Source: Solitalea longa (lineage in GTDB: Bacteria > Bacteroidota > Bacteroidia > Sphingobacteriales > Sphingobacteriaceae). From it: a DNA stretch of 64,000 bases. A program made the position numbers and the translations under genes. Below are positions 31,368-37,497 of the stretch, in pieces (within the stretch, counting starts at the first letter, position 1; each line of letters starts with the position of its first letter). The notes beneath the pieces were generated by a model. That model did not search any database, was not told the DNA's origin, and saw nothing but the letters and a program-made list of their open reading frames with translations. The DNA lies in NCBI RefSeq assembly GCF_002920915.1, contig NZ_PQVF01000004.1, forward strand, positions 248,001 through 312,000, written 5' to 3'.

Positions 31368-31571
31368 ATGAAAAAAGTATTTGCTTTAATGTTAGCTGCT
31401 GGTGTATTTGCAGTTGTTGCTTGTGGTGAAGGTAAAAAAGCTGAAGGTTCTGCTGATTCTTCAGTTGTTGATTCAGCTGCTGCTGTAGTTGATTCAGCTG
31501 CTGCTAAAGTTGATTCAGCTGCTGCTGTAGTTGATTCAGCTGCTGCTAAAGTTGATTCATTGAAAAAGTAA
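31368..31571 (+). CDS. Small lipoprotein with VDSAAA heptad repeats
   Basis: This 67-residue precursor has a signal peptide ending in a lipobox (GVFAVVAC), so the mature form is an about 49-residue lipoprotein. After a short charged linker it consists of four heptads alternating VDSAAAV and VDSAAAK, closing VDSLKK. The DNA is a matching 21-bp tandem repeat with a 42-bp higher-order period. The heptads predict a rigid helix or coiled coil, and the lysine-ending tail recalls Braun's lipoprotein, though no homology is claimed. It is divergent from the ECF sigma gene with a shared promoter motif, and it ends at a terminator. Confidence 0.85.
   Translation: MKKVFALMLAAGVFAVVACGEGKKAEGSADSSVVDSAAAVVDSAAAKVDSAAAVVDSAAAKVDSLKK
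31464..31559 (+). repeat. 21-bp coding tandem repeat
   Basis: Four full units and one partial unit of GTTGATTCAGCTGCTGCT plus a variable codon (GTA or AAA) encode the VDSAAA heptads. The near-perfect DNA identity suggests recent expansion or gene-conversion-like maintenance. Confidence 0.85.
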
Positions 31572-36198: not shown

Positions 36199-36675
36199 AT
36201 GACAGAAAACAAAATTTCTATCTCCATTCCTATGGATGATTTTAACACTGCTTTGAGCAAATTGCAGGAAGTTCAAACCATTTTAGCGCCTTATTTGGTG
36301 GCCCTATCGTCTGACCAGCGTATGTCCTTACCTAAAATGGGCGACAAAACTTTTTCGTTTGTTGAAAAATCAATGCAGTTTGCCCAATCGAAGCCTGAAC
36401 TGATGCCCGGGTTTATTGATTTAACAGAATGGCAAAAGGATGTTGACGGCCGCAATTAACTAGATCAGTTGTTTAGGTTAGTTGAGCAGTTAGCCAGCAA
36501 TATTGATGATATGTCCTTGCTTTGTGGAAGTGATGCTTATGTATCTTCATTAGGTTTTTATAATTCGATAAAACAGGCAGCCAAGATGAATGTGCCCAAC
36601 GCTAAACCTATTTATGACGAATTACAAAAAAGGTTTCCCGGAAGGCCGACAGCCAAACAAGCTGAACCTGTTTAA
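36199..36675 (+). pseudogene. Hypothetical helical protein gene split by an in-frame TAA
   Basis: The frame runs MTENKISISIPMDDFNTALS to WQKDVDGRN, reaches TAA at 36457-36459, then continues in the same frame as LDQLFRLVEQLASNIDDMSL to AKQAEPV. The joined protein would have 158 residues, and its content flows naturally across the stop (a helix ending and the next helix beginning). The joined sequence resembles a short conserved Bacteroidetes family of unknown function. A base change, a sequencing error or stop readthrough would each explain it. Confidence 0.75.
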
Positions 36676-36681
36676 CATTAG

Positions 36682-36716
36682 CAAAGCCTAGGTCCAAACC
36701 CGGGCTTTGTTCCTTT
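36682..36716 (+). terminator. Probable terminator
   Basis: CAAAGCC (36682-36688) pairs with GGCTTTG (36703-36709), followed by TTCCTTTT, just after the split hypothetical gene. Confidence 0.6.
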
Positions 36717-36728
36717 TAACTACCTTTT

Positions 36729-36980
36729 ACTACCTACCTCATACTAATTTCTCCTACGGTGGTATTAAAAAGTACCTCATAAGTACTAAGCCCTCCAATT
36801 GAGGTACTAAGTTGTAGCTTGCTAGTAGTAAGTTCTCCCTTTTAGGTAGTTAATAGTACCTGCCTAAGACTAATTAGTACCTCTGAGGTACTAATTACTA
36901 CCTCTGAAGTACTAATTATTACCTCCGAGGTAGTAATTTCTCCTTCCAACGATATTAGTTGTTGTTTCAAGATACTATGC
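36729..36980. repeat. Twelve-unit 21-bp degenerate palindromic tandem repeat
   Basis: The tract divides exactly into twelve units of 21 bases with no indels. The clearest is AGTACCTCTGAGGTACTAATT (36876-36896), written here in one unit as AGTACCTC-TGAGGTACT-AATT; units 7 to 10 (36855-36938) are the best conserved. Each unit is itself close to palindromic (TACCTC with GAGGTA). Outer units drift in sequence but keep phase. It lies between convergent genes. Confidence 0.85.
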
Positions 36981-37023: not shown

Positions 37024-37497
37024 CTACGCTAACTCTTCAAACAACGCCGGAGGCAAATGAGTAAAAAACTCAGGTATTAAAGTATAACTGCTCTTATCAA
37101 AATGATTGATAACTAATATACAAGCTCTCTCAGTATTGCCAATCTTAAAAAAATCATCTTTAATTTGTGGCGTTGAAAGAATCAGTGTTCCTCCCTCAAT
37201 AAGAGTTAAACGTAGTTCAGTTGCGTTTTTAAACTCAAAGCTTTCTATTATATTACTATACCTCCTGATTGCTTTCCTCGGTAATAATATGCAATAAATG
37301 GTCGAAAGTACTGTTATCGGTATATACAAAGTCCAAAATTTAATCTCAGTACCTCTTTGAAGCGCAAAGCAGAATATAACATTGAGTAATATAAATATAG
37401 GACGACCGAAGTAAATAGTTCTGTAGAACGATCTTAAATCACTTCTCAATTTTTTCGACCATAGCTCCGTCAATACAAATTCTTCATTTTTATTCAT
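37024..37497 (-). CDS. Hypothetical membrane protein with two N-terminal helices
   Basis: The 157 residues begin with a charged cytoplasmic stretch (FVLTELWSKKLRSDLRSFYR), then two adjacent hydrophobic segments at about 33-48 and 55-73. A soluble C-terminal domain follows (LRLTLIEGGTLILSTPQIKDDFF; TERACILVINHFDKSSYTLIPEFF). The layout recalls YcxB-like proteins, but the match is weak. No conserved partner is seen. Confidence 0.65.
   Translation of the reverse strand: MNKNEEFVLTELWSKKLRSDLRSFYRTIYFGRPIFILLNVIFCFALQRGTEIKFWTLYIPITVLSTIYCILLPRKAIRRYSNIIESFEFKNATELRLTLIEGGTLILSTPQIKDDFFKIGNTERACILVINHFDKSSYTLIPEFFTHLPPALFEELA

Follow-up and report, generated by a model that had tools for sequence, protein, structure and literature searches.

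Downstream of a short, split gene in Solitalea longa lies an intergenic array of twelve palindromic 21-bp units, an arrangement that recurs in many bacteria, mostly Bacteroidota, beside members of one unannotated protein family. We think it rather probable that gene and array form a self-contained two-part locus. The gene, for a helical protein of about 160 amino acids, would be one half, and the some 12 palindromic units of 21 bp that follow it would be the DNA half, acting as double-stranded DNA. On present evidence the unit is a kind of its own, combining a new protein family, a new pairing and fixed-phase palindromic units whose sequence is specific to the locus. No account of a comparable gene-array unit emerged from shallow word searches of open-licence papers.

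The array and its setting in Solitalea longa

The window, the whole 64-kb stretch of S. longa DNA analysed here, contains the following features around the array.

36199 to 36675, plus strand: linked protein-family gene, read from open reading frames; 158 amino acids in Solitalea agri, split here by a TAA codon
36685 to 36717, plus strand: terminator-like hairpin with a T-rich tail, between gene and array; stem at 36690 to 36707
36729 to 36980, no strand assigned: array of 12 x 21 bp, degenerate dyad units, with unit types alternating in its older parts
36874 to 36936, no strand assigned: three central, near-perfect dyad units within the array
37024 to 37497, minus strand: next gene, convergent, with no Pfam match; excluded from the unit because S. 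agri has a different gene at the same place

The initial annotation of this DNA described twelve strictly phased units, and both unit alignment and self-comparison bear it out. The alignment contains no insertion or deletion. Taken alone, positions 36729-36980 have a lag-21 identity of 0.554 and a lag-42 identity of 0.614, and none of 1000 shuffles attains 0.554, the maximum at any lag from 15 to 30 being 0.398. When the full 64 kb are scanned in 230-bp windows at lags of 15 to 59, the two strongest signals, lag 42 (0.59) and lag 21 (0.57), both fall at the array, and the third best (0.47) lies away from it. The 42-bp superperiod consists of two unit types in alternation. A scan by 450-bp tiles at the threshold used for the family flagged no tile in the window; tiles and threshold together miss this array, which the direct tests detect. 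An Rfam search of the window returned no match. Elsewhere in the window, at 31368-31571, a small lipoprotein-like ORF of 67 amino acids carries VDSAAAK/VDSAAAV heptads, for which exact 42-bp repeats (31467-31559) code; there, in contrast to the array, the 21-bp repeat is truly coding.

The unit profile is a dyad as a whole, with a symmetry score attained by only 1 of 2000 column permutations. The claim that every unit holds a TACCTC/GAGGTA dyad stands for the array as a whole and has to be narrowed for single units: the three central units match 10, 8 and 9 of 10 pairs, while the other nine match 2 to 6, where about 2.5 are expected by chance.

On its 5' side the array is bordered by the gene at 36199-36675 and the terminator-like hairpin, and on its 3' side by the end of the convergent gene. 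The hairpin, which was also read by eye, is weak, one such element being found against 0.7 expected in shuffles. The gene itself is interrupted by an in-frame TAA at 36457-36459, leaving 86 codons and then an ORF at 36469-36675. Its orthologue in S. agri (contig NZ_JAMWYS010000006.1) is intact, with 158 codons open and 97% identity, and the stop in S. longa represents either a recent loss or a strain difference.

Sequence conservation of the array is narrow. The nearest relative is S. agri, in the same genus as the genome of the window, and its orthologous array aligns over 277 bp at 93% identity (blastn). Compared position by position, the two differ by 20 substitutions and no gap over 252 bp. 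Ten of the 20 fall within the three central units, which occupy just 63 of the 252 bp; because of this concentration, the fast-changing centre and the slow, decayed edges point to turnover among units in the middle of the array. Among 120 genomes, blastn with the array sequence matched these two species only. A sequence-only model of 63 bp reached E <= 0.1 in 51 of the 120 genomes, with nothing below E 0.004 outside the two Solitalea genomes; 28 loci from other genomes obtained in this way contain no 21-bp array (best lag-21 identity 0.49) and are chance-level matches. One weak match within S. agri itself (contig C1) is a coding coiled coil. The array sequence matched nothing among plasmids, phages and viral contigs. 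No orthologous empty site was found in other Solitalea, where the flanking gene has only distant homologues. In a third Solitalea species (G003:C1:3848001-3854000), the second paralogue of the family gene is a frameshifted wreck with no 21-bp array nearby.

Linkage of arrays to one gene family

The protein, unlike the array sequence, leads far beyond the genus. Homologues of the upstream protein were fetched from 7 of 60 genomes, and every locus with an intact gene has a 21-, 42- or 63-bp periodicity just downstream, each time in a different sequence. The second paralogue in S. agri (contig C58), 43% identical, has its own array with another sequence. Of 395 class genomes searched with a protein profile, 40 hold relatives, with up to 7 copies per genome; so do 30 of 395 genomes sampled across the phylum.

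Three sets of loci were examined, with an array called where lag identity reached 0.55 within 450 bp of the gene. The class census began with 90 profile rows; merging two pieces in genome G129 and removing four partial or broken genes (G229:C69, G335, G193:C125 and G227:C213) gave 85 loci, of which 83 had at least 200 bp downstream and were counted. The set of named genomes comprised 79 loci, nine of them with less than 200 bp downstream, so that 70 were counted on that side; some of its members are closely related, and four (L094, L138, L161, L171) are copies of loci in the census. The phylum set of 21 joined 20 newly fetched loci to one from Thiodictyon, and two of its members (L251, L256) are partial matches.

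In the class census, the best downstream lag between 12 and 34 was 21 in 61 loci, 22 in eight and 20 in one, for a total of 70 out of 83 at 20-22, compared with 9 of 83 upstream, which is about chance level. Arrays of 20-22 bp at threshold lie downstream in 61/83 loci of the class census, 45/70 of the named genomes and 8/21 of the phylum sample; upstream they number 3/83, 1/76 and 0/21. Adding lags of 42-44 bp raises the downstream counts to 67/83, 48/70 and 13/21, and the remaining 16/83, 22/70 and 8/21 loci have no array even then. Control lags of 16-18 downstream yielded no array in any set, and lags of 24-26 yielded a single one, in the class census. The census includes the nine loci that prompted the hypothesis, whereas the phylum set is independent of them and has the lower rate (8/21, or 13/21 with the 42-44-bp lags).

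Selection for a period of two helical turns gains support from the 70 of 83 loci that keep it though their sequences differ. A lack of related arrays anywhere had been named as the outcome that would count against the proposal, and the suggested search for similar arrays in this genome and its relatives instead turned up both sister arrays (see below) and related arrays, which are common beside the family gene. The initial annotation is partly supported, namely for the period and for a protein-binding array; a coding repeat is not supported, and the link to the upstream gene was missed.

In some arrayless cases the gene leads a tandem pair or has an array on its upstream side (L085, L198, L209, L179); arrayless loci also include L104 (Labilibacter), L164 (Capnocytophaga) and L170 (Prolixibacter). 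One relative is carried by a plasmid, in Ca. Thiodictyon, and has no array. No relative was confirmed in viral contigs or in phages. Among the named isolates that have an array are Breznakibacter xylanolyticus, Plebeiobacterium marinum, Carboxylicivirga marina (22 bp), Labilibaculum filiforme, Algoriphagus boritolerans and S. agri. Metagenome bins, from a series that we take to be of termite-gut origin, account for the records labelled Treponema, Azoarcus, Planctomycetaceae, Myxococcales and others; these may be misbinned, so any reach of the layout beyond Bacteroidota is tentative.

Variants of the layout were also seen. One family gene (L128) has 21-bp arrays on both sides, with lag-21 identities of 0.76 upstream and 0.89 downstream. 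Family arrays with a period of 22 bp occur at L089, L195 and L202 (lag-22 identity 0.80-0.90), and one has a period of 20 bp (L209b, 0.74). Behind the first array of L102 and L107, there is a second short repeat block, ATTTTACAACC, at a spacing of about 10-11 bp, common to these two Prevotellaceae bins.

The surroundings of the gene are otherwise inconstant. The 84 nearest ORFs analysed, out of 127 listed for 79 loci, fall into 69 Pfam families with no more than three members in any, so gene and array stand alone, with no conserved neighbour.

Anatomy of the arrays

Taking all 106 loci with an array together, the median length is 244.5 bp, or 11.6 units, and only lags 21 (+0.29) and 42 (+0.28) stand out. 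The median distance from stop codon to array is 55 bp, and terminator-like elements occupy this interval in 55 of 106 loci, compared to 5 of 106 when shuffled. At a few loci, such as L032, the hairpin was instead seen by eye on the 3' side of the array.

Dyad symmetry recurs across the family: 52 of the 106 arrays show it at p <= 0.01, compared with two for mirror symmetry as a control, and 103 of 106 arrays are closer to their own reverse complement than to those of other arrays, a figure to which G+C content may contribute and in which related loci are not independent. In a subset of 35 arrays selected for strong dyads (420 units), the recurring features are a CTCnGAG centre and TT..AA ends, between which the arms are locus-specific yet complementary.

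The mismatches within these dyads offer a means to separate DNA symmetry from RNA pairing. In 51 arrays, G-T mismatches occur at 0.087 and A-C mismatches at 0.093 (0.094 and 0.091, respectively, in arm positions 4-7). The observed difference of -0.006 has an interval of -0.022 to 0.009, and composition alone predicts -0.021. There is thus no clear G-T bias, and no clear strand bias, a pattern that favours symmetry of double-stranded DNA over RNA hairpins: since the two mismatches are about equally frequent, the DNA duplex would be the target of selection, or, with lower likelihood, an RNA in which wobble pairs are scarce. With dyad units of 21 bp, symmetry axes alternate every 10.5 bp, or one helical turn; the value follows from the geometry of the units and is not a measurement. 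The early suggestion of a protein-binding array fits well with a kept period and with units that are dyads at the DNA level, features from which binding by a protein may be inferred.

The linked protein

Members of the linked family are about 160 amino acids long, helical and mostly acidic, with a median pI of 5.5 in 52 core members and 4.95 in 81 census members. Searches of Pfam, NCBIfam and PADLOC with the S. agri protein gave no match, and PHROG gave only one, at E 0.16. Nor do the 52 core members share any Pfam or NCBIfam match beyond weak, scattered ones, as judged from the 25 best of 42 Pfam families at E <= 1. An AlphaFold2 monomer model is all-helical (mean pLDDT 92.8, pTM 0.72) with one helix of 55 residues. 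Foldseek found no convincing structural relative (best E 2.1 in PDB and 1.3 in BFVD), and the best VIA-align Z score, 5.5 over 74 residues, belongs to rows that are generic helix pairs. A ribbon-helix-helix (RHH) origin, considered from the look of the N-terminus, was dropped after hhalign gave a probability of 0.6% (E 0.094), in a weak comparison with three RHH sequences only; a monomer model cannot reveal a dimer ribbon.

The protein is under purifying selection, with dN/dS of about 0.03-0.34 in some 36 comparable pairs among 40 listed of 253. Whole-protein and half-site distances correlate (r 0.19, 0/1000 permutations), and no protein column tracks the arms as specificity residues would (57 loci, top z 3.1, an analysis that retained L024, a locus with an internal stop). 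Arms can differ considerably even between loci whose proteins share 92-93% identity (L139 and L142 compared to L140). This divergence of arms, together with the acidity of the family, speaks against simple sequence reading by the linked protein; its cues may instead be phase and centre, or a partner may assist it.

Sister arrays without a gene

Searching five genomes with their own gene-linked arrays revealed a sister array in four, the exception being an Algoriphagus genome (G331). S. longa has one of the same units on contig C35, and S. agri has a long one on C46 with a lag-42 identity of 0.945; these two are homologous to each other. The other two are in genomes G130 (C100, 78% over 218 bp) and G227 (C104, 92% over 241 bp). 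Because the G227 copy also shares the following ORF, segmental duplication or variation between assemblies may account for it. No trace of the family gene was found near the sister arrays within the four fetched loci.

A pyridoxal-dependent decarboxylase gene lies beside the S. agri sister array, and S. longa seems, by eye, to keep only the 3' end of it, following a deletion that ends about 35 bp from the sister array (L009 2000-2200, L022 856-2013). The gene-less array of G130 adjoins a ParE-like toxin gene and a small ORF in antitoxin position (L266 1923-2449).

A model for the gene-array unit and its alternatives

The sister arrays suggest action in trans and, with the symmetry of the units, shape the model we prefer. 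The array would serve as a multi-site DNA platform with a twofold axis every 10.5 bp, one per helical turn. Since dyad units place axes at this interval, a symmetric (dimeric) protein could line up on one side of the helix over about 24 turns. As binder, the linked gene's own product is the simplest candidate, whether it acts alone or together with a DNA-binding partner. Arrays that lack a gene but have the same units might be served in trans by the same factor, and because they can be, the system may have a role in marking, compacting or joining places on the chromosome. The observations behind this model are the linkage to one side of the gene, the phase, the dyads, the lack of a clear strand bias, the constraint on the protein, the sister arrays, and the third Solitalea species, where a wrecked gene goes with the absence of an array; binding by a protein, the identity of the binder and the purpose of the assembly are inferences from them.

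Several observations stand against this reading. The protein resembles no known DNA-binding family tested, some loci have no array, the Algoriphagus genome has no sister array, and in S. longa the gene is broken while the array stays. A broader version is more tentative, and we regard it as a reasonable conjecture that falls short of being probable: two-part loci of this kind would make up a new class, common on the chromosomes of Bacteroidota, in which a helical protein of an undescribed family assembles on its own phased dyad array, all units change their sequence together without loss of phase or symmetry, and matching arrays that lack a gene, elsewhere in the chromosome, are bound or bridged in trans. 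If true, an abundant and unannotated gene family would acquire a physical partner and a function open to test. The array would also be a natural ruler in which sequence can vary but phase and dyad symmetry are preserved, a rarity among DNA sites and a way to ask what a protein reads without a fixed sequence. Moreover, concerted change of all units with symmetry restored would be a clean case of compensatory evolution in non-coding DNA.

A first alternative holds that gene and array are the footprint of a mobile or self-amplifying unit. The two would move together, and the array would be made or renewed by a process rather than needed for binding, perhaps by slippage, unequal exchange or a template switching that perfects palindromes. 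The solitary state of gene and array (84 neighbouring ORFs in 69 Pfam families, at most three in each), their patchy presence in 40 of 395 class genomes with up to seven copies in one, arms that change while proteins stay, fast-changing central units and gene-less array copies all suit such an element. That said, the protein is strongly constrained and matches no catalytic or transposase family, the phase is fixed, no relative was confirmed in viral contigs or phages, and the single plasmid copy has no array. We consider this explanation unlikely.

Somewhat less likely still is an RNA array, in which transcribed repeats act as a structured RNA, like the RNA antitoxin of type III toxin-antitoxin systems, with the protein as partner. 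A small protein gene beside tandem palindromic units whose sequence differs by locus resembles that arrangement; variable but complementary arms are what RNA stems would have, and the observed difference of -0.006 against an expected -0.021 leaves room for a slight G-T excess. Against this, G-T mismatches do not clearly exceed A-C mismatches in the 51 arrays, the period is fixed at two turns of DNA, and the arrays lie downstream of the gene, often (55/106) behind a terminator-like hairpin. The promoter motif TAnnTTTG is not in excess around the arrays, and no toxin family matches the linked protein.

A neutral minisatellite, that is, an accidental tandem duplication drifting in phase because no indel happened to occur, would fit the window array if it stood alone, with its homogeneous centre, decayed edges and 20 substitutions without an indel relative to S. 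agri. It is improbable for the family and already contradicted by the linkage statistics: the arrays recur beside one protein family in unrelated genomes, on one side of the gene and at 20-22 bp only, and their dyads covary.

About as improbable, or a shade more so, is a bona fide partition centromere of the parC or sopC kind whose motor is encoded at another place in the genome. In its favour are the likeness to sopC and the presence of inverted-repeat tandem iterons beside a small protein gene. There is no conserved neighbour, however, and hence no adjacent NTPase; the loci are chromosomal, with up to seven copies per genome, and the protein matches no centromere-binding family, the profile comparison with three RHH proteins giving a probability of 0.6%.

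The old coding repeat put forward in the initial annotation can practically be set aside: a frame of STSEVLI-type heptads does exist, and one runs as a 125-codon ORF in the S. agri array on C46, but stops interrupt it in the window array (TAA in the unit at 36771, TAG in that at 36834), 22-bp arrays (L089, L195, L202) would break a heptad frame, and an open third frame is unsurprising where the other two frames of the dyad unit hold stops.

Comparison with known systems

Several familiar repeat systems differ from the locus in their defining parts. The units run head-to-tail without spacers, and the linked protein has no PADLOC match, unlike CRISPR with its identical repeats, unique spacers and cas genes. 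An iteron replication origin was rejected since the linked protein has no Rep match and there is no conserved neighbour, and a REP/RAYT system was rejected since no Y1 transposase appears among the 25 best of 42 Pfam families for the 52 core members.

Type III toxin-antitoxin loci of the ToxIN kind likewise consist of one protein gene and a tandem array whose unit differs by locus; their antitoxin array lies upstream and acts as RNA. Here the arrays lie downstream (61/83, against 3/83 upstream) and carry no clear RNA signature, and no known type III toxin family is among the Pfam, NCBIfam and PADLOC matches of the linked protein.

The TAACTGA heptamer arrays of Beggiatoaceae, Cyanobacteria and some Bacteroidetes are also intergenic tandem repeats, some of them long in Bacteroidetes; they differ in being one fixed 7-mer at many places, many just before start codons, with no partner gene family described for them (PMC4679880).

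Plasmid partition sites come nearer, as the 106 arrays share with them tandem repeats that include inverted or direct repeats. No adjacent ParA, ParM or TubZ NTPase appears among 25 listed of the 69 Pfam families in the 84 nearest ORFs. The parS repeat of pSM19035 is 7 bp long. These sites, too, are arrays of short repeats, and the omega protein binds direct or inverted repeats and wraps DNA (PMC5016525). They differ in a fixed and short repeat sequence and in that omega is an RHH protein. The parC sites of pSK41 and R1 are continuous tandem iterons, bound by small ParR dimers that form a superhelix of 12 dimers (PMC5016525). Unlike the present arrays, parC lies upstream of its operon and is served by an RHH protein and the ParM motor; here the array is downstream, the protein is acidic and helical, and there is no motor.

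In the sopC (parS-F) site of the F plasmid, which lies downstream of sopAB, a 43-bp repeat carrying an inverted repeat occurs twelve times and is bound by a protein dimer, SopB (PMC9178275). The likeness is in about 12 tandem inverted-repeat units placed downstream of the genes that serve them. The differences are a 43-bp unit, adjacent ParA and ParB genes and a helix-turn-helix ParB, compared with a 21-bp unit, one gene, no NTPase and locus-specific units. Because the defining neighbours are missing, the locus is not classed with the plasmid centromeres, among which sopC and parC are nevertheless its closest working analogues.
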